IMG/VR virus record: IMGVR_UViG_3300048772_000284
Location: 1 to 42,385 of that record
Reading direction: 5' to 3' (one strand)
DNA length: 42,385 nt
From: a virus
Positions 6,736 through 23,825 of the stretch are shown here, piece after piece. How positions within the stretch are numbered: position 1 is the first letter of the stretch; each line of letters starts with the position of its first letter. The position numbers and the translations under genes are program-made. Below the pieces are notes generated by a model. The model was given only the letters and a program-made list of their open reading frames with translations, made no database searches and was not told the DNA's origin.

Positions 6736-7761
6736 TCATCCCCTGACGAGGTTGCTGTTTGCTATTCTATGCCGCGCCATCGCCGCGTACTTTGGGTTCA
6801 GATCAATTCCGATGAAGTCACAACCCCACTTCTTCGCTACTACACCCACCGTACCTGAACCACAGAACGGATCAAGCACCGTGCTGCCCTCTCCCGTCCC
6901 GGCAAGCAAGCAAGGCTCGACCAGCTTCACGGGGAAGGTGGCGAAGTGCGCTTCTTTGAAAGGTTGTGTGGCGATGGTCCACACATCACGCTTGTTGCGA
7001 GTCTCTTTCGCAGGAATCCCCAAAGACGACCGCTCGGTGCCCCCACTTATTAAGCCTTCTGTGCGCACGATAGCCTGTTCTGCCAATTTGCGCGAGGCGG
7101 GGCCACCTACGGCCTTCATCGGGCCGTTGGACTTGCCCGGAACCCGGTCAGACCCTCGCTGGTTCTCTACATCCTGATCCCAGCGCGCCACCGACGAGGC
7201 CGCCGCCGGCTCTTTGATCGCCTCCGCGTCGTAGAAGTATCGCGCGCTCTTGGTCAACAGGAACAGGTACTCGTGGCTCTTGGTGCAGCGGTCGGTCACG
7301 CTCTCCGGCATCGGATTCGGCTTGGCCCAGATAATGTCCTGCCGCAGATACCAGCCATCGGCGCGCAGTGCGAAGGCTAAGAGCCAGGGGATGCCTACGA
7401 GGTCTTTGTTCTTCAATCCATGATCTCTAAGTCCTGCGCCGGGTTCGATGTACTTCCGCGCTTGCTGGCGCTCTGTCTCAAGTCCAGTACCGCGCTGGTT
7501 TGCCATGTAGCCGTTGTACGAATCCCCGATATTCAGCCACAACGTTCCATCGTCGCGCAGCACGCGCCGCACTTCCGCGAACACGGCTACCATCTTGGCT
7601 ACGTACGCATCTGGCGTTTTCTCCAAACCGTACTGACCCTTCACTTGATAATTTCTTAATCCCCAGTAGGGGGGTGATGTTATGCAGCATTGAATCGAAC
7701 GGTCAGGCAACTCCCCAAGCCGCTTTAGAACATCTCCGGTCAACACACGGCTTGTCATCAC
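6736..7761 (-). CDS. Orphan site-specific DNA methyltransferase, beta class
   Basis: A 341-residue SAM-dependent methyltransferase modifying adenine N6 or cytosine N4. Motif IV TSPPYWGL is at residues 28-35, and motif I DPFCGSGTVG at 297-306 comes later, the permuted beta order. LWLNIGDSYNGYM and DIIWAKPNPMPESV are the usual flanking motifs of this phage/RM family. SPPY favours N4-cytosine or N6-adenine; the sequence cannot decide. No restriction endonuclease gene is adjacent, so it is probably an orphan enzyme protecting phage DNA or marking it for packaging. Start ATG 7761 in ATGA overlap with the upstream gene. Confidence 0.93.
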   Translation of the reverse strand: MMTSRVLTGDVLKRLGELPDRSIQCCITSPPYWGLRNYQVKGQYGLEKTPDAYVAKMVAVFAEVRRVLRDDGTLWLNIGDSYNGYMANQRGTGLETERQQARKYIEPGAGLRDHGLKNKDLVGIPWLLAFALRADGWYLRQDIIWAKPNPMPESVTDRCTKSHEYLFLLTKSARYFYDAEAIKEPAAASSVARWDQDVENQRGSDRVPGKSNGPMKAVGGPASRKLAEQAIVRTEGLISGGTERSSLGIPAKETRNKRDVWTIATQPFKEAHFATFPVKLVEPCLLAGTGEGSTVLDPFCGSGTVGVVAKKWGCDFIGIDLNPKYAAMARHRIANSNLVRG

Positions 7762-7988
7762 TTGCTCCTGTAAACCCGAATACTGGATTTGCTGACGCGC
7801 AGAACCGAGAACTTCCGCCCCATTTGCCGCCCGCGCAGACAGGCGTAAGAAACCATGGAGCGCAGCGTGGGAGTCCCGTCCCGCACCGGCACGTTGAACC
7901 CTTCGCCGCGCTTCATTGTTGCGAAGGGGTACTTTGGCTTGGGCCCGCGGCGAGGCTTCACGAAAGGCTGCTTAGTTGGTTTGAGCAC
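7758..7988 (-). CDS. Small conserved phage protein (76 aa), GTG start
   Basis: GTG at 7988 is preceded by GGGAGGGG (five-base spacing), better than the ATG seven codons upstream, and overlaps the preceding gene by 17 bases. The text KYPFATMKRGEGFNVPVRDG, then LRSMVSYACLRGRQMGRKFS and an RVSKSSIRVYR strand match a common small phage protein pattern (YPF-x-x-M-x-x-G-x-x-F ... G-K-x-F-x-V) of unknown function, often near DNA methyltransferases and single-strand binding genes. Probably binds DNA. Confidence 0.75.
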   Translation of the reverse strand: MLKPTKQPFVKPRRGPKPKYPFATMKRGEGFNVPVRDGTPTLRSMVSYACLRGRQMGRKFSVLRVSKSSIRVYRSK

Positions 7989-12653: not shown

Positions 12654-12682
12654 AATTTAACAGAAAAAGTTGCAAAAGTCAA
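12654..12682 (-). promoter_or_regulatory. Sigma70-type promoter for the zinc/HTH gene
   Basis: Minus strand TTGACT (12682-12677), 17-base spacer, TAAATT (12659-12654). The 14-base block TTGCAAAAGTCAAT (12670-12683), which contains the -35, is repeated exactly at the PP-loop gene promoter (15560-15573). The leader holds a TGGGC-ATTTCA-GCCCA hairpin (12632-12647) just before the ribosome site. Confidence 0.6.
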
Positions 12683-13278
12683 TATAGGAGGAGCGACGAC
12701 TCCAAGCTAATAGTATAAATTTTCAAACAAAATTCAAAAAACACAACTTTTCACCGAAAACGGCGTTTCGAGCTTGGGCAGCAACACACCCCGCACCACA
12801 AATACCCCAAGCAGGGATGCCGTTTCACGACTCCACCATCGCGCCCAAACCCCAGGTACAATACAGTACAAAATAAAGTGTAAATAAATAAAAAATAAAT
12901 ATAATATCAATAACAACCATAATAGTAATATACATATATTTATTTTTTTCTAAAGAAATTTCTCAATAATATAGCTTCCACCATATAGCGTATTACACAA
13001 CCAGTAAACATCGCCCGAAGCCCTATGCCTGTTGGCCGTTTCTATTTTACCCTCCAACATCGCCTACTCCCCGGCGGAGATGCGCCGCACAGGGCTCAAA
13101 GGTGCGTGAACACTGGCGATTCGTTGTGGTGTACGCTTGAAGTACCATGATGCTGACAAAATTCGGGTGTTGTACAATTGGTAAACAGCAAAGCGCGTGG
13201 TTCGTAGACCATAAATTGAGCGCATCTCGTTGTGCGGCGGCTAAAAAGCCGCGCACTCCGCAGTTTGAATTGCAACCC

Positions 13279-13341: not shown

Positions 13342-13449
13342 ATGGCAACAAAGAAAAAGCCGACCGTGAAGAAGGCCGTTCCCAAGAAGGGGAAGAAAGC
13401 CCCCAAGCGCGGGGTCCGTGGCAAGAAGCCGCAGGCACCCGGCACCTAA
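13342..13449 (+). CDS. 35-residue lysine/proline-rich basic peptide
   Basis: ATG 13342 behind AAAGGA. Reads MATKKKPTVKKAVPKKGKKA and then PKRGVRGKKPQAPGT. Fourteen of 35 residues are Lys or Arg, with no Cys and no hydrophobic core, so it is disordered and resembles a histone tail. Two readings are possible: a small DNA-binding/condensing protein, or the substrate peptide of the radical SAM/SPASM enzyme encoded immediately downstream. A hairpin lies between the two genes. The latter idea is inference from gene order only. Confidence 0.6.
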   Translation: MATKKKPTVKKAVPKKGKKAPKRGVRGKKPQAPGT

Positions 13450-13470
13450 GCAGCACACCACCAAAACATC

Positions 13471-13505
13471 GCGCCTCACACCTAAGTGTGAGGCGCTTCG
13501 TTTAA
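13471..13505 (+). terminator. Strong stem-loop between peptide gene and radical SAM gene
   Basis: Perfect 11-base stem GCGCCTCACAC (13471-13481) / GTGTGAGGCGC (13486-13496) with CTAA loop, followed by TTCGTTT. It could act as a leaky intrinsic terminator, making more peptide mRNA than enzyme mRNA, or as an RNA processing/stability element. The T tract is interrupted, so partial termination is more likely than full. Confidence 0.6.
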
Positions 13506-13513
13506 GGAGCACA

Positions 13514-14323
13514 ATGGCGATCACGGTAAACCTCGAACTCACCACCGCCTGCAACTTCGCTTGTTTCTGCTGCCCGCTTCCCGCCCTGAAGCGCAAGCCT
13601 GCCACACTCCCCACCGCCAAAGCGATTGCACTCATCAAGGAAGTCGATGAGGACAAGCTGGCCGTGGGCTTCTCGTTTCATCAAATGGGCGAGGCTCTAC
13701 TCCATCCTGACTGCGTGAAGATCGTTCGCCGCGCACACGAACTTGGGCTGCACACACGCCTCGTGACCAACGGCTCACTCCACGACAAGCGCAAGCTCAC
13801 CGCTCTGTTCGATGTGTTGGATGTGCTTGACATCAGCTATCGCTATGAGGGCGGCGCCGCGAAATCCGGCAACTTGACCGCAGCACAATATAAGAAGTCT
13901 ATGGAGTCCACCATCGAGCTTCGGCGCAGCCTGCCCGGCGCCATCACCGCGATTAGAATGCGGGTGTTTGACGACGCCAACAACCTCGCCGCGCCCTGGT
14001 GGAGGATCACCGACCCGTGGTTCGTTCTGGTGCGCGACCAGCAATTCGTGTGGCCCAGCGCCGTGGGAGAAGTCCGGCCGCCTGCCCACCCAGTGAAGTG
14101 CGCACGCATGGATACCCGCATCTCCATCTTGGCTGACGGGTCTGTGACAACTTGTTGCTGGGACGCGGAAGGCGGGAACACATTCGGAAATATATTCAAT
14201 GCTCGCTTGAAGGACATACTCAGCGGACCTGTGCCCACTGAGTATGCTCGCTTGCTGCGACGGGGCGTGATGCCCACCGCGACTTGCCGTGCCTGCGTGG
14301 CCGAGTCGTCAGATGATGCCTAG
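13514..14323 (+). CDS. Radical SAM enzyme with SPASM-like C-terminal domain (269 aa)
   Basis: ATG 13514 with AAGGAG ten bases before it. The Fe4S4-binding CxxxCxxC is formed by C13, C17 and C20 (ELTTACNFACFCC), followed by a compact radical SAM half-barrel with GEALLHPDCVKIVRRAHELG and TRLVTNGS. The C-terminus has the SPASM signature: C-A-R-M-D..., SILADGSVTTCCWDAEG, GNIFNARLKDI and a terminal CRAC pair, for auxiliary cluster binding. SPASM enzymes modify ribosomal peptides, proteins or other substrates; some phage radical SAM proteins act in nucleotide chemistry. Substrate is unknown here. Ends tail to tail (15-base overlap) with the leftward gene at 14309. Confidence 0.9.
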   Translation: MAITVNLELTTACNFACFCCPLPALKRKPATLPTAKAIALIKEVDEDKLAVGFSFHQMGEALLHPDCVKIVRRAHELGLHTRLVTNGSLHDKRKLTALFDVLDVLDISYRYEGGAAKSGNLTAAQYKKSMESTIELRRSLPGAITAIRMRVFDDANNLAAPWWRITDPWFVLVRDQQFVWPSAVGEVRPPAHPVKCARMDTRISILADGSVTTCCWDAEGGNTFGNIFNARLKDILSGPVPTEYARLLRRGVMPTATCRACVAESSDDA

Positions 14324-14785
14324 CTCGTTCGCCCAACTGGAATCGTTGCGCGAGACTGACCACTTCACCCGCGGCGACTTCATTTGAATGCCCAGCTTCT
14401 TTGCCAGCTTGAATCCGCTTACGAACATGGTTCGTTCGTCAACGTCCATGGACACGTTCAACTTCTTCAGGAACTCGGCTTTTTGCTCTGAGTTCTCGAA
14501 GATGACGCAGAAGTAAAACCCCACGTCCATGATCTCTTCACGCTGTGCCGTCTCTCGTTTGCGCGCGATTCTGAATGTTTGTTGCGTGGCGGTCAGCTCA
14601 GCGCGCGTGTCGTGCTCCGCCTTGCCGGTGTACTTCACATTCTTGAAGTGCTTCACATCGTCGCCACCACCGTCAATTCCAAGTCCATCCAACGCGTCCG
14701 TTTTGTCGGCCGCGCCTTTGGACAGCCCGTCGAGTCCGTCGAGAAAGTTGTACTCGCCAATGTTTAAGTCGTCCTTCTTCTTCAC
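14309..14785 (-). CDS. Phage protein paired with the PP-loop gene (158 aa)
   Basis: ATG 14785 overlaps the stop of the PP-loop gene by ATGA. The first ~45 residues are Gly/Asp-rich and flexible (NFLDGLDGLSKGAADKTDAL). The remainder is a folded domain with DVGFYFCVIFENSEQKAEFL and ERTMFVSGFKLAKKLGIQM. I recall proteins of this kind beside PAPS-reductase-like genes in other phages, but no function is known to me. The tight coupling suggests a partner or regulator of the PP-loop enzyme. Confidence 0.75.
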   Translation of the reverse strand: MKKKDDLNIGEYNFLDGLDGLSKGAADKTDALDGLGIDGGGDDVKHFKNVKYTGKAEHDTRAELTATQQTFRIARKRETAQREEIMDVGFYFCVIFENSEQKAEFLKKLNVSMDVDERTMFVSGFKLAKKLGIQMKSPRVKWSVSRNDSSWANELGII

Positions 14786-15537
14786 AGATGCCTCCGTACA
14801 AGGTCCAGGTTTGCAAGTGGAAACCAGTCGAGGATTCGCTGGTAGTCTTTCGGGAAGTGTTCTTTGATGGGCGCCAGGTACTCCAAGTGCACGCCGTCAA
14901 AGCTGCGACCGAACATGGTGTAGTCAGCCGGCAGCCTCAGACCGCTCTGCTTGAGGCGCTCCATCAGGTACGCCTTCTTCCAATCCCAAATGGGGTAGAA
15001 GGTTTTAGTGCGCTCGATAATCACACCATGTTTTCGCACCGTGGTGTAGCGCACCAGCCCATCGGTTGCGCGTATGCCGATGGCGTTGTAGATGCTGGTG
15101 GGATCTTTCACATTGGTGTCGTGCTCCAGCACCAGCGCGCGCATCTCTTCTTTCGTGGCGGTTGGCAGTTGCAGCTCATCAATGATGCTCCAACGCTCGG
15201 GTGGTTGAAGCGTGTAGCTGCTGAGTGCTTTGTACAACCCTGGGTGCGGCACCGAGTAGATGCGGGTTTTGAATGCGTTCTGGTAGTAGTCAAGCGCCTC
15301 GTCCACAAAGCTCAAGTCCGGCACCAGATAAAAGTGAACAGGGATAATTCGCTTGAACTTTCCCCACAAAGCCAGCCACGCACCAATGCTGTCCTTGCCA
15401 CAAGAGAAGCTCAGGGACACGGTGTCGTATTTGCGCGCAAGAGACCTTATGACCTCTTCACCGCTGGGCACCATGGTGATCTGTCCGATCTGCGGTTGCT
15501 TCGCTGCCACGACTTTAGTGATGCACAATTTGCTCAT
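14782..15537 (-). CDS. PAPS-reductase-like PP-loop ATPase (251 aa)
   Basis: Starts at ATG 15537. The PP-loop SFSCGKDSIGAW is at residues 43-54; it matches the S-x-G-K-D-S that binds and adenylates substrates in the PAPS reductase/adenine-hydrolase superfamily. KRIIPVHFYLVPDLSFVDEA and the C-terminal FYPIWDWKKAYLMERLKQSG (truncated family motif P-I-x-x-W) support this family. Phage members occur near DNA modification genes and are suspected to act in nucleotide or thio-chemistry; sulfate reduction is unlikely. Its promoter places the predicted transcript start on the A of the ATG, and there is no Shine-Dalgarno, so the mRNA may be leaderless. Confidence 0.85.
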   Translation of the reverse strand: MSKLCITKVVAAKQPQIGQITMVPSGEEVIRSLARKYDTVSLSFSCGKDSIGAWLALWGKFKRIIPVHFYLVPDLSFVDEALDYYQNAFKTRIYSVPHPGLYKALSSYTLQPPERWSIIDELQLPTATKEEMRALVLEHDTNVKDPTSIYNAIGIRATDGLVRYTTVRKHGVIIERTKTFYPIWDWKKAYLMERLKQSGLRLPADYTMFGRSFDGVHLEYLAPIKEHFPKDYQRILDWFPLANLDLVRRHL

Positions 15538-15543
15538 AAGTAT

Positions 15544-15572
15544 ATTATAACTCAACGACTTGCAAAAGTCAA
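15544..15572 (-). promoter_or_regulatory. Strong leftward promoter, probably leaderless transcript
   Basis: Minus strand TTGACT (15572-15567, 5/6), 17-base spacer, perfect TATAAT (15549-15544). Six bases separate the -10 from ATG 15537, so the expected start nucleotide is the A of the ATG itself. A dyad GACTT-GCAA-AAGTC (15557-15570) overlaps the -35 and could be an operator. Confidence 0.8.
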
Positions 15573-15635: not shown

Positions 15636-16202
15636 GTGCAAGCGAAGAAGAAAAAACCCGTGTCTAAGCAGGCTGCGCTAAAATCCGCGCTGGTTGCGAA
15701 GAGCGAAGCCAAAGGGCATACCGCGGTGAAGCCCCCACCCCCGAAGAAGAACAACGGCAATACATCGAAGCGCGGAGTTGTCGGCGAGGGGCATCCGTTT
15801 GTCAAAGTCGATGTGGACCAGCTCGCGCTCCTGGTGAAGATCGGCTGCACCATGGACGAGATCGCCGAAGTTCTCAAGGTTGCCAAGGACACCATCGAGC
15901 GGAATTATATGCCTGTGGTCGTAGCCGCACGCAAAGAGCGCAACGTCGCCATTCGCCGCAAGCAATATCAGCTTGCAATGGACGGCGACCGTACCATGTT
16001 GGTGTGGCTTGGCAAGCAGTGGCTCGGGCAGACCGATCAACTTCAACTGGGCAACAACCCTGACAATCCTCTAACGCCAGGGGGTTCGGTGCCAGTCATT
16101 GAGATTATCTTCGTCGAGTCCGATGGCGATGGGCACCCGAAAACCATAGAAGGCATTGTTGAACCAAAGAAGCTGACGGGTGGTAGCAATGCTTCAAAGT
16201 GA
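15636..16202 (+). CDS. terS: Terminase small subunit (188 aa)
   Basis: GTG start at 15636; no better start and no Shine-Dalgarno precede it. The first ~60 residues are Lys/Pro-rich and flexible. The centre is a HTH of the TerS type: KIGCTMDEIAEVLKVAKDTI, then ERNYMPVVVAARKERNVAIR and the typical end of this family MVWLGKQWLGQTDQ (here MLVWLGKQWLGQTDQ). The small subunit recognises the packaging site on concatemeric DNA and loads the motor encoded next, which overlaps by 14 bases. The C-terminal acidic tail probably contacts the large subunit. Confidence 0.92.
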   Translation: MQAKKKKPVSKQAALKSALVAKSEAKGHTAVKPPPPKKNNGNTSKRGVVGEGHPFVKVDVDQLALLVKIGCTMDEIAEVLKVAKDTIERNYMPVVVAARKERNVAIRRKQYQLAMDGDRTMLVWLGKQWLGQTDQLQLGNNPDNPLTPGGSVPVIEIIFVESDGDGHPKTIEGIVEPKKLTGGSNASK

Positions 16203-17502
16203 ACAAGCAGTGCGCGATGAACAGCGGTTTCAAGAGCAGCGCGAAGTTGTCGGCAACCCTCGCGCCTACTTCCCAGCAAAGTTCAAAGCGTTGTTCCAGC
16301 CTGCACGCTACAAATCCATGCACGGCGGTCGTGGTTCAGGAAAGTCGTGGGCGGCTGCGCGCGCACTGGTTTTGCTCATGGGGAAGAAGCCATTGCGCGT
16401 GCTCTGCGCCCGTGAGTTGCAGAACTCCATTGCGGAATCAGTGCATCGGCTGATAAGCGACCAGATATTCGACCTGGGCCTGCTCGGCAAATTCATCATT
16501 ACAGAGAAGTCCATCCGCTGTATCAACGGAGGAGAGTTCATCTTCGCCGGCATTCGCTCCAATCCAATGAAGATCAAGTCCATGGAAGGTCTTGACGTGT
16601 GTTGGGTTGAGGAGGCATCGGTCATCTCGGAGCGAAGCTGGGAGTTGCTCACCCCCACCATCCGCAACGGCAAGGTTTACACGGGACGCGACGGTGTGCG
16701 GGAGCCGGAGATCTGGCTGACGTGGAATCCTGACCAGATGGACGACCCTACCTACGTTCGTTTTGCCAAGAACTTGCCACCAGGCTGCGTTGACATTGTT
16801 GTCAACTGGACAGACAATCCATTCTTTCCAAACGTACTCCGCCGTGAGAAGGATTACGACTACAGCCGCGACCCTGACCTGGCAGCTCACGTGTGGGGCG
16901 GCGAGTGCCGCGTCAACAGCGAGGCACAGATTTTCAAAGGCCGCTACATTGTCGATTTGTTTGCACCACCAGATGATGCCCGCTGGTATCACGGCATGGA
17001 CTTCGGGTTTGCCAACGACCCATTCGCGCTCACCAAGATGTACATTACCGGCGACGAACCCACGCTTCAAGAGTTGTGGGTTTACGACGAGCGCAGCGGC
17101 GTAGGCATTGAACTAGATGATTTGCCCACACACGTTCGCTCTATGCCCACGGCTCTGAAGTGGCCGTGCAAAGGCGACAACTCTCGGCCGGAAACGATCA
17201 GCTACCTGAAGCGCGTGGTGCCAATGAATCTCGTCGCCGCTGAGAAGTGGGGCGGTTCAGTCGAGGATGGCATCACGCACATGAAGGGCTTTCGTAAGAT
17301 TCACGTGCATTCAGTGAACTGCCCACGCGGTCAAAAGGAGTTCCGTCTTTACCACTACAAGGTGGACCCGAAGACAGAAGAGGTTCTGCCGATCATCGTC
17401 GATGCCTGGAACCACACCATTGACGCCGACCGCTACGGCCTGGATGGCCTCATTCATCGTCGCGGCGCCGACAAGGTTTGGTCGCGGTTTGCAGGGCACT
17501 GA
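16189..17502 (+). CDS. terL: Terminase large subunit, PBSX-type (437 aa)
   Basis: Packaging ATPase and headful nuclease. ATG 16189 is preferred, with GTG 16180 possible. The ATPase half has Walker A GGRGSGKSW (K52), the adenine-binding ARELQNSIAESVH, and Walker B DVCWVEEA (136-143). The nuclease half carries GMDFGFANDPFAL near 268 and DGLIHRRG near the end, with acidic residues of an RNase H-like fold. Length is usual for terminase_3/3C proteins. Family members of this type often package by headful, which would fit a circularly permuted genome, but the window cannot show it. Confidence 0.95.
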   Translation: MLQSEQAVRDEQRFQEQREVVGNPRAYFPAKFKALFQPARYKSMHGGRGSGKSWAAARALVLLMGKKPLRVLCARELQNSIAESVHRLISDQIFDLGLLGKFIITEKSIRCINGGEFIFAGIRSNPMKIKSMEGLDVCWVEEASVISERSWELLTPTIRNGKVYTGRDGVREPEIWLTWNPDQMDDPTYVRFAKNLPPGCVDIVVNWTDNPFFPNVLRREKDYDYSRDPDLAAHVWGGECRVNSEAQIFKGRYIVDLFAPPDDARWYHGMDFGFANDPFALTKMYITGDEPTLQELWVYDERSGVGIELDDLPTHVRSMPTALKWPCKGDNSRPETISYLKRVVPMNLVAAEKWGGSVEDGITHMKGFRKIHVHSVNCPRGQKEFRLYHYKVDPKTEEVLPIIVDAWNHTIDADRYGLDGLIHRRGADKVWSRFAGH

Positions 17503-21601: not shown

Positions 21602-22041
21602 CGCTCTACACAGACGAAGCAGGACTTGATTTTATCGCAGCCAATGAAGGGCTGGTGCTAACCATTAGCAACGACAACGGACACCCTGTCATCGGCCACG
21701 GCCACGACCTCACTCATCAAGAGATTGCCGGCGGTATATACGCCAACGGAATCACCACACTCCAAGCACAACTGATTCTTGAGCGTGACTGTCGCGAGTG
21801 GGATGCTGCGATCAACGCTCTCAACTGGCCCTTGAACCAGAATCAACATAACGCCCTCTGCGACTTTACACACAACCTGGGAGTGGGCAAGTTGCAACGG
21901 CTCGCGGCGCATGGACAAGAGCAGGTGTGTGTTCAGCTGCCGCGCTGGGTGTATGAGAAGCAGAACGGTGTTGAGGTGGTGAGCAAGGGGCTCGTCGCGC
22001 GACGCGCAAAGGATGTAACGCTGTATCAGACTCCATGCTGA
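21547..22041 (+). CDS. Endolysin, T4-lysozyme-like GH24 (164 aa)
   Basis: Peptidoglycan-degrading muramidase. The active-site region is ANEGLVLTISNDNGHPVIGH then GHDLT: Glu and Asp (E-x8-D) match the T4 lysozyme E11-D20 pair, but the residue aligned with catalytic-like Thr26 is Val. The remainder (QAQLILERDCREWDAAINAL, NQNQHNALCDFTHNLGVGKL) fits the C-terminal GH24 helices. No signal peptide, so it needs a holin, which is not seen. The true start is unclear: ATG 21547 overlaps the previous gene by 55 bases and GTG 21562 is an alternative. Its place between head genes may point to a virion-associated form. Confidence 0.8.
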   Translation: MRLGGVQPGFYQGERRSLTLYTDEAGLDFIAANEGLVLTISNDNGHPVIGHGHDLTHQEIAGGIYANGITTLQAQLILERDCREWDAAINALNWPLNQNQHNALCDFTHNLGVGKLQRLAAHGQEQVCVQLPRWVYEKQNGVEVVSKGLVARRAKDVTLYQTPC

Positions 22042-23825
22042 AAACCGAAGACGCCAAGCCGGTGAAGCCCACGCCACAGCAACTACGCAAGCTGGGGCGT
22101 GAACGGTTTATCCGCGCACGCCGCGCCGGCTCCGCCTTTCAGCGTCAGCTCTCCAAGCTGGGCAACCACATCGGCGCGCTTGTAAAGAAGCACGCTCCTG
22201 GTGGCGTGGTTTCTGACTGGCGCGCTTTGCGCAAGGCGCTCAACGATTACGCCGCGCAAATTCGCCCCTGGGCAGAGTCCATCACAGAAAGCCTGCACAC
22301 CGAAGTCGCGCAACGCGATGCACAGGCGTGGTTCCAGGCTGGCCGCGAGATAGGGCAACACCTACGCGAAGAGATTGCCTCCGCGCCCACAGGCAAGATG
22401 ATGAAGTCGCTGCTCGCGGAGCAGGTAGACCTAATCACATCGCTGCCCACTGAGGCGGCAGAGCGTGTGCACAAGCTCACTCTGCAGCGCATCGCCCAGG
22501 GGCGCAGGCCGGAGTCCTTGGCTCAGGAGATTCTGAAGACCGGCGAAGTGACCGTCGCGCGCGCCCGTATGATCGCGCGCACCGAGACTGCACGCACAGC
22601 AGCGGCGCTCACTGAGGTTCGCGCAAAGCACATCGGCAGTGAAGGATACCTGTGGCGCACTGCAAATGACAGCGACGTTCGTCCCGCAATCGGCACACCA
22701 GGATTTTCGCAGCTCAACACCCTTGCGATGGGAAGCCATCGAAAACTTGAAGGTACTTTTCACCGTTGGGACGAGCCGCCTATCGCAGCGCCCACTGGCG
22801 AGCACGCACACCCAGGAAGCATATGGAACTGCCGCTGTTTTTCGTCTGATACGCTTGTGACTAAAGTCACAGGAATTGAAAAGTTATATCGGTCGTACTA
22901 CCGAGGTGATCTTTGCCGCGTTACAATTGGAGACGCCGAGTTTACAGCGACACCGAATCACCCGATGCTCACGCAACGTGGTTGGGTGCATGTATGCGAA
23001 CTCCAAGACAGCGATTACCTCGTTCAGGTGCTCCGTGATCCACACATCTTCGTCGAAGCCAACGTAGATAGTTTTCACGCCACATTTGGCGAGTTGTTTG
23101 GATCGTTGCCTGGACGCGTGGATGTGGCACCGGGAATTTTGTTTGATCTCTATGGCCGTGTTCCCGATGGCGATGTCCACACAAAGATCATCAATCAACT
23201 TCTGACGTGTGACAACGTAGCCAAGAGTCTCAAGCGCAGTGGCAATTTCACACTCGCCAAACCCAACAGCGGGGTTGAAGGTGCCATTTGTGGCGGCGGT
23301 GCGCATGTTGCTGAAACGTCGAGAGCGTGCAGCAGCGACGCGCTTCTTTCGCCGTTCCAAAGTCATTCTCCCCATGCTGATTTCGTTGGCACTGCTGACG
23401 CCTCTTCGAGTGATGCCGGCCTCATTGAGTCGCTGAGTGATGGTCCAACGATTGACGTGGTAGAGCGCAGCGAGTTCGAGTTCGCTAATTCCAGAAAGGT
23501 ACTTGGCGACGATCTTTTCAGCGGGGAGGTTTTTGCGCCCGTTGCCATGACCGACCGCAGGCGCCCAATGTTTGACGACGCCACCAGCAGCACGAATCGC
23601 TTTGCTGAGATTGTCCGGGCTAACTTTGAGCAAGGCCGCAACGTCTTTAAGACGGGTGCCGGCATCTATGCGCTGCTTCCCTTCAGAAACGACTTCATTC
23701 GTAAGTTTCCGTTTTCGGGCCATGTTTACACGCTCCAAACTGACGTTGGTTGGTATGGGGTATCAGCTATGTCTATTATAGCACAAAACTGTTGGGCAGA
23801 GCCAGTTTTACCGGATCGTATTTGA
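22035..23825 (+). CDS. MuF-type head morphogenesis protein interrupted by an intein
   Basis: SPP1 gp7/Mu F-type minor head protein that binds the portal. ATG 22035 overlaps the lysozyme stop by seven bases. Extein residues 1-267 show the family text: LAQEILKTGEVTVARARMIA then RTETARTAAALTEVRA, SEGYLWRTANDSDVRP, and the conserved HPGSIWNCRC. The family motif should continue CWAEP; instead residues 268-585 are an intein, after which CWAEPVLPDRI ends the frame. The spliced protein would be 278 residues, the usual size for MuF. Without splicing the NCRC-W motif is broken, so splicing is expected to be needed. Confidence 0.92.
   Translation: MLKTEDAKPVKPTPQQLRKLGRERFIRARRAGSAFQRQLSKLGNHIGALVKKHAPGGVVSDWRALRKALNDYAAQIRPWAESITESLHTEVAQRDAQAWFQAGREIGQHLREEIASAPTGKMMKSLLAEQVDLITSLPTEAAERVHKLTLQRIAQGRRPESLAQEILKTGEVTVARARMIARTETARTAAALTEVRAKHIGSEGYLWRTANDSDVRPAIGTPGFSQLNTLAMGSHRKLEGTFHRWDEPPIAAPTGEHAHPGSIWNCRCFSSDTLVTKVTGIEKLYRSYYRGDLCRVTIGDAEFTATPNHPMLTQRGWVHVCELQDSDYLVQVLRDPHIFVEANVDSFHATFGELFGSLPGRVDVAPGILFDLYGRVPDGDVHTKIINQLLTCDNVAKSLKRSGNFTLAKPNSGVEGAICGGGAHVAETSRACSSDALLSPFQSHSPHADFVGTADASSSDAGLIESLSDGPTIDVVERSEFEFANSRKVLGDDLFSGEVFAPVAMTDRRRPMFDDATSSTNRFAEIVRANFEQGRNVFKTGAGIYALLPFRNDFIRKFPFSGHVYTLQTDVGWYGVSAMSIIAQNCWAEPVLPDRI
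22884..23723 (-). CDS. Homing-endonuclease-like gene encoded antisense within the intein
   Basis: A 279-residue protein, ATG 23723 behind GGAG. It has two HTH motifs (residues ~24-46, TRLKDVAALLKVSPDNLSKA; ~80-104, ELELAALYHVNRWTITQRLN), a linker ISMGRMTLERRKKRVAAARS, and a Vsr-like PD-(D/E)xK nuclease core at ~154-240: GFGECEIATALETLGYVV, D183, E192-x-K194 in AIEIK, H200 and H202, then GVKTIYVGFDEDVW. These are features of phage homing endonucleases of the Vsr/EDxHD-like group. Its codons are in register with the sense intein codons. The last ~40 residues lie over the intein N-block and look less protein-like. Own extended -10 promoter at 23775-23783. It would cut intein-free MuF alleles to spread the intein. 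Confidence 0.85.
   Translation of the reverse strand: MARKRKLTNEVVSEGKQRIDAGTRLKDVAALLKVSPDNLSKAIRAAGGVVKHWAPAVGHGNGRKNLPAEKIVAKYLSGISELELAALYHVNRWTITQRLNEAGITRRGVSSANEISMGRMTLERRKKRVAAARSRRFSNMRTAATNGTFNPAVGFGECEIATALETLGYVVTRQKLIDDLCVDIAIGNTAIEIKQNSRCHIHASRQRSKQLAKCGVKTIYVGFDEDVWITEHLNEVIAVLEFAYMHPTTLREHRVIRCRCKLGVSNCNAAKITSVVRPI
23775..23783 (-). promoter_or_regulatory. Extended -10 promoter for the antisense endonuclease
   Basis: Minus strand TGC-TATAAT (23783-23775): perfect -10 with TG extension. A good -35 is not present (weak GGCTCT at the right distance). The same bases encode S-I-I-A of intein block G on the plus strand. Predicted leader is about 45 bases to ATG 23723. Confidence 0.65.

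Follow-up and report, generated by a model that had tools for sequence, protein, structure and literature searches.

A virus record of 42,385 bases, the whole of which is called the window here, carries a gene for a very small Lys-rich peptide followed by a hairpin and a radical SAM gene, and facing these is a gene for a PAPS-reductase-like PP-loop protein together with a partner gene. The question raised by this arrangement is which of the two enzymes, if either, the peptide belongs to and what the locus does for the phage. An earlier note, made from the DNA letters alone, had taken the peptide, the radical SAM enzyme and the PP-loop protein for one module; both enzyme genes, the partner gene, the peptide gene and the hairpin are real and lie where that note had placed them. 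The explanation preferred here, to which a probability of about 0.5 is given, is that the locus is a PP-loop/partner/peptide cassette interrupted by an unrelated radical SAM gene and that the PP-loop/partner pair acts on the peptide.

The Locus and Its Phage

The window is incomplete. A longer assembly of the same phage (IMGVR_UViG_3300037449_000119, 64,281 bp, 99.99% identical), in which window positions 1-42385 are positions 17442-59826, exceeds the window by 17.4 kb at its left end and by 4.5 kb at its right end, and both added ends were read. The features of the locus, in window positions, are as follows.

13342..13449, plus strand: gene of the Lys-rich 35-aa peptide, candidate small-peptide component of the PP-loop cassette (by translation and coding score)
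13471..13496, plus strand: strong hairpin between the peptide and radical SAM genes, terminator- or attenuator-like, with a weak T-run
13514..14323, plus strand: radical SAM/twitch enzyme with a BtrN-like fold, probably an inserted accessory gene
14309..14785, minus strand: partner protein of the PP-loop enzyme (TDSEYW / GDKYLDG family, diverged in the window)
14782..15537, minus strand: PP-loop ATPase of the PAPS-reductase-like fold family, with no conserved Cys
15544..15572, minus strand: promoter-like site TTGACT-17-TATAAT, ending 7 nt before the PP-loop ATG
15636..16202, plus strand: gene at the position of the terminase small subunit, with a Lys-rich N-terminus (identity suggested by its place; no Pfam match)
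16180..17502, plus strand: terminase large subunit, beside which the cassette usually lies

The peptide, MATKKKPTVKKAVPKKGKKAPKRGVRGKKPQAPGT, has 35 residues, 12 of them Lys, and no Cys, as the earlier note had said. Its frame is open from 13147, and a longer form of 100 aa was also considered; the codon usage score, 0.46 for the 35-aa form against -0.10 for the upstream part, speaks against that form. The hairpin consists of 11 perfect pairs (-21 kcal/mol, z -6.5), and searches for RNA families and tRNAs near it gave none. About 65 bp separate the peptide stop from the start of the radical SAM gene, which is on the same strand and has its own ribosome-binding site. On the facing strand, the partner gene shares 4 bp (GTGA) with the PP-loop gene and, tail to tail, 15 bp with the radical SAM gene at the 3' end of the latter. 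Since TATAAT ends so close to the PP-loop ATG, the mRNA of this gene may be nearly leaderless. A box, TTGACTTTTGCAA, is identical at 12670-12682 and 15560-15572, both on the minus strand, in two minus-strand units.

Several other parts of this phage are also worth recording. Positions 12720-13000, which separate divergent genes, are AT-rich and apparently non-coding and may be an origin or a control region. A Mu F-like head protein (22035-23825, plus strand) contains an intein-like block (CFSSDTLVTKVTG ... SIIAQNC), and inside its gene lies an antisense ORF of 284 aa (22884-23738, minus strand) with HTH-like and endonuclease-like segments recognized by eye; Pfam and PDB searches with the block and the ORF gave weak or no matches. 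In addition, near-perfect IGYGA/IGNGA hexapeptide repeats of the left-handed beta-helix type make up a protein of the same phage (L013, 11902-12762, minus strand).

The PP-Loop Protein and Its Partner

The PP-loop protein matches phage "PAPS reductase" families in PHROGs (3e-21), and its description in the earlier note as a PAPS-reductase-like protein with a partner is borne out by other phages. A gene for a partner relative is present in each of the 86 viral loci that have a PP-loop relative, a count in which a few contigs are repeated or near-identical. The two genes nearly always overlap or lie a few bases apart, and in L006 and L007 they form one fused protein. PP-loop protein and partner are inseparable across the sampled phages. 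The pair occurs in dozens of unrelated phages and mostly adjoins the terminase. The only families that clearly recur around it are packaging and head genes, and the terminase large subunit was recognized within the fetched flanks of 46 of the 86 loci.

The radical SAM enzyme is not part of this association. A homologue stands beside the pair in only one of the 86 loci, that of the window's own phage, so that the trio claimed as a module is not supported, and among the loci sampled the radical SAM gene stands apart as an outsider. The nearest relative, L004, whose pair is 74% identical, has no radical SAM gene in its contig of 19.9 kb. After its partner gene, in the place taken in the window by the radical SAM gene, there is a resolvase-like gene (7353-7982, minus strand). 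With a resolvase-like gene in one phage and a radical SAM gene in the other, the junction on the partner side may be an insertion hot spot.

As for chemistry, S45, G47, K48, D49, G154, D159 and R163 of the PP-loop and the GxRxxxSxxR nucleotide-binding motif are invariant, and the family keeps the SxGKD loop and GxRxxDSxxR. No Cys is conserved: no alignment column exceeds 21 Cys in 56 sequences, and the window's protein (P0002) has only Cys5 and Cys46, neither of them conserved and neither a catalytic C-terminal Cys. Because no column is conserved as Cys, PAPS reduction or persulfide thiolation by this enzyme seems unlikely. Adenylation-type chemistry is the remaining common use of the PP-loop. 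The family profile gave only weak matches in the PDB, to GMP synthase, PAPS reductase and QueC. The partner family is characterized by conserved TDSEYW and GDKYLDG segments; its AlphaFold model (pTM 0.46) has no PDB match and no known fold was found for it, and searches of PHROGs, Pfam and NCBIfam gave nothing convincing, with weak matches in PHROGs only.

Small Basic Peptides Beside the Pair

When the loci were read by eye, a short basic peptide was seen between partner and terminase, typically ending in R-S-S-G-S or R-T-S-G-T. In most loci the peptide beside the pair has 20-60 residues, is basic and typically ends in R-[ST]-S-G-[ST], and such small basic peptides are regular companions of the pair. 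Among small basic ORFs with a ribosome-binding site, an end in [SG]G[ST] or SAT was found in 53 of 182 within 500 bp of the pair against 4 of 712 in the remainder of these loci (P = 5e-35), and this strict end occurs near the pair in 46 of 82 loci. The tail pattern had been chosen after viewing the same loci, so it was reapplied unchanged, with slightly looser limits on how charged and how long a small basic ORF may be, to 48 unused and more distant contigs, where the enrichment was weaker (8/136 near, 1/357 far, P = 2e-4). Both sets contain near-identical contigs and the P values consequently overstate independence. Furthermore, positions outside the selection are conserved, with Arg at C-5 in 39 of 53 peptides and Ser or Thr at C-4 in 43, in a list that also includes peptides picked by eye. 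About 40% of the loci of the first set and most of the distant set have no strict tail motif; a looser search by composition only, run without a control, gave a candidate within 400 bp of the pair in 71 of 82 loci.

In some pairs of related peptides synonymous changes are clearly in excess; those of L153 and L154, for example, differ by 12/27.3 synonymous against 2/65.7 non-synonymous changes, which indicates purifying selection, and more diverged pairs show a weaker synonymous excess. Small basic peptides accompany the PP-loop pair in dozens of phages in which no radical SAM homologue was detected. Such genes are annotated as hypothetical in Gordonia phage Morgana (gene 173) and Cutibacterium phage CA1NRNZ, and the record of Pasteurella phage Pm86 has no gene at the peptide position. 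Searches of PHROGs and NCBIfam with representative peptides, and of Pfam with the window's own, found no describing family. In L216 (3780-3946) and L249 (3775-3945), two small basic peptides just upstream of a distant PP-loop relative share another tail (-RASRK/-RAMRK, -STRK).

Several loci encode two different peptides with the same tail, and the bodies of the peptides vary freely. Because the body is variable, the tail constant and the tail shared by doubled peptides, the peptides look like cargo carrying a recognition tag, and we infer that they are substrates of the pair, the main rival being that they are its subunits. That rival belongs to a second explanation of the whole cassette, less probable than the preferred one but the strongest of the alternatives, according to which the pair modifies nucleic acid, phage DNA or tRNA, and the basic peptide is a third subunit or a DNA-binding helper by which the enzyme is guided to this target. 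PP-loop enzymes commonly act on tRNA or nucleotides, the peptides are strongly basic with only 0.9% acidic residues, and the cassette adjoins the terminase in many loci, all of which would suit such a role; however, free bodies, a kept C-terminus and doubled peptides with one tail are more cargo-like than subunit-like.

The Lys-Rich Peptide of This Phage

The Lys-rich peptide of the window is probably this phage's copy of the cassette peptide. No other small basic ORF of the 64-kb phage ends in [SGP]G[ST], a pattern to which Pro had been added so as to admit this peptide, and in composition it resembles the peptides of L122 and L164. Its position agrees in part. Where pair and terminase are opposed as in the window, the peptide is on the terminase strand and on the 3' side of the partner in five of six loci, two of which are near-identical, and the window's peptide is on this side and strand, but with the radical SAM gene intervening. 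It is 860 bp from the partner, against a few bp elsewhere, and directly precedes the radical SAM gene. Its end, QAPGT, departs from R-[ST]-S-G-[ST] and agrees only in the final Gly-Thr. No clear peptide was found in L004, the closest relative, and direct relatives are lacking: tblastn against phages gave no match and a degenerate DNA pattern matched the same phage only.

An explanation that can be regarded as improbable is that three unrelated things have met at this locus: the PP-loop pair, the radical SAM gene as an accessory, and the peptide as no more than an ordinary small basic protein. The lack of the tail motif in the window's peptide would fit this, as would the presence of Lys-rich stretches elsewhere, in a protein of L004 and at the N-terminus of the terminase-small-subunit-like protein; against it, small basic peptides accompany the pair regularly and the window's has the side and strand that are to be expected.

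The Radical SAM Enzyme

The product of 13514-14323 scores above the cut-off with the Radical_SAM and SPASM models of Pfam, which is in keeping with its designation as a SPASM enzyme in the earlier note. Across 49 sequences, however, the conserved Cys are C13/C17/C20 and C196/C214/C215/C258/C261, that is, five in the C-terminal part against the seven of strict SPASM proteins, which have two auxiliary clusters. Judged by these ligands, the C-terminal domain holds one auxiliary cluster and is of the twitch type, and that part of the designation which implies a full two-cluster SPASM domain has to be given up. CX3CX2C, one auxiliary cluster in a shortened domain and the BtrN fold, the features of the twitch (BtrN) type, were all found. 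BtrN is the best match of the AlphaFold model (pLDDT 86) by Foldseek (4.5e-11) and by VIA-align (Z 21.0, 2.9 A over 224 residues; next protein 17.4), and the two sequences align in both domains (1.3e-28).

The relatives of the enzyme are all distant (less than about 32% identity) and come from bacteria, mostly gut Clostridia, and from viral contigs; in IMG/VR the longer assembly of the same phage is the only close relative. Most viral relatives sit in sugar clusters, beside genes for Epimerase_2, NeuB, a hexapeptide transferase, a HisF-like protein, a nucleotidyl transferase or a glycosyltransferase. Some of the clusters, which are of sugar or nonulosonate type (L019-L023, L026, L028), have a second, unrelated PP-loop gene that is amidotransferase-like. 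A match in a GenBank "Bacteriophage sp." record (L011, MT835673.1) was rejected as a phage neighbourhood: its genes include housekeeping genes of bacteria, recognized by eye as MutY, thymidine kinase and HemW-like, and the contig has the look of a bacterial chromosome. Because its fold and cluster ligands resemble those of BtrN and its relatives have sugar genes as neighbours, the radical SAM enzyme would most likely carry out small-molecule chemistry, for example the oxidation or rearrangement of a sugar.

The gene order peptide, hairpin, enzyme had suggested in the earlier note a RiPP system in which the radical SAM enzyme matures the Lys-rich peptide and the hairpin sets the ratio of peptide to enzyme; the short spacing and the separate ribosome-binding site described above also speak for it. 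It is correct that a precursor-like gene adjoins the enzyme gene, but the peptide is not kept beside the homologues: a comparable Lys-rich peptide lies just upstream in 0 of 93 loci of bacterial and viral relatives, all of them distant. For the homologues available, this is the absence that the earlier note had itself named as counting against its reading. Moreover, neither PqqD nor an ABC transporter was found in the 64-kb genome, and the enzyme, of 269 aa, begins at the barrel and so leaves no room for an RRE domain; the RRE/PqqD element is absent from some peptide-modifying radical SAM enzymes and its absence is not decisive. Peptides of the cassette type also occur without a radical SAM gene. 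This explanation is judged unlikely, and it is retained at that level because EpeE, a peptide epimerase that also matches the model (Z 15.8), and SuiB, both of which act on peptides, share the fold of the enzyme, and fold alone is not decisive. Equally unlikely is the boldest combination, a phage system, widespread but so far undescribed, whose Cys-free PAPS-reductase-like ATPase would work with its dedicated partner on tiny cationic peptides, recognizing them by the conserved C-terminus and modifying or conjugating them next to the packaging genes, the twitch radical SAM enzyme having been added here as a second tailoring step.

Proposed Mechanism and Its Meaning

In the preferred reading, that of a cassette whose pair acts on the peptide, the pair would bind the peptide by its C-terminal tail and would use ATP to activate the peptide or a nearby group by adenylation. 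The product would be a cationic peptide, modified or conjugated, that serves late in infection, at about the time of packaging or lysis. The Lys-rich peptide would be this phage's version of the substrate, and the radical SAM gene, lodged between peptide and pair, would not act on it. The idea of a phage peptide-modification module survives in part, since an arrangement of peptide plus enzyme is probably present, and what finds no support is that the peptide is acted on by the radical SAM enzyme.

As a rule, "PAPS reductase" genes of phages are put down as metabolic strays, and the evidence indicates that one large branch of them is no reductase but belongs to a fixed unit with a partner and a tiny peptide, the last of which is usually missed by annotation. 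If the peptide is the substrate, this unit would be a phage peptide-modification system. The locus also illustrates that an inserted neighbour gene can make the wrong enzyme look like a peptide's partner. No paper on the PP-loop/partner/peptide cassette was found in the open-access literature, to which the search was confined.

Comparison with Known Systems

The radical SAM enzyme may be compared with BtrN, 2-deoxy-scyllo-inosamine dehydrogenase. The two are nearly equal in length (269 residues in the window, 270 in BtrN), both have CX3CX2C, and the auxiliary ligands are CX17C-X43-CX2C in the window's enzyme and CX17C-X44-CX2C in BtrN, whereas the identity is only about 18% and no aminoglycoside pathway genes were found around the window's enzyme. 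The virus-borne sugar modules contain members of this enzyme's radical SAM family, and the conserved Cys are identical; unlike the window's gene, theirs have Epimerase_2, NeuB and amidotransferase-like neighbours, none of which was seen beside the window's enzyme.

The cassette itself resembles ATP-dependent adenylating RiPP systems, of which lasso peptide cyclases are an example, in that a short ribosomal peptide with a conserved recognition segment lies beside an ATP-PPase-type enzyme; it differs from them in that the recognition segment would be C-terminal and no leader, protease or transporter was seen. Finally, the PP-loop protein shares the SxGKD PP-loop and the GxRxxDSxxR and P-x-x-D-W motifs with phage "PAPS reductase" proteins (PHROG 2302 and 424; PF01507), whereas, in contrast to the known PAPS reductase type, its family has no conserved Cys and is always paired with the partner protein.
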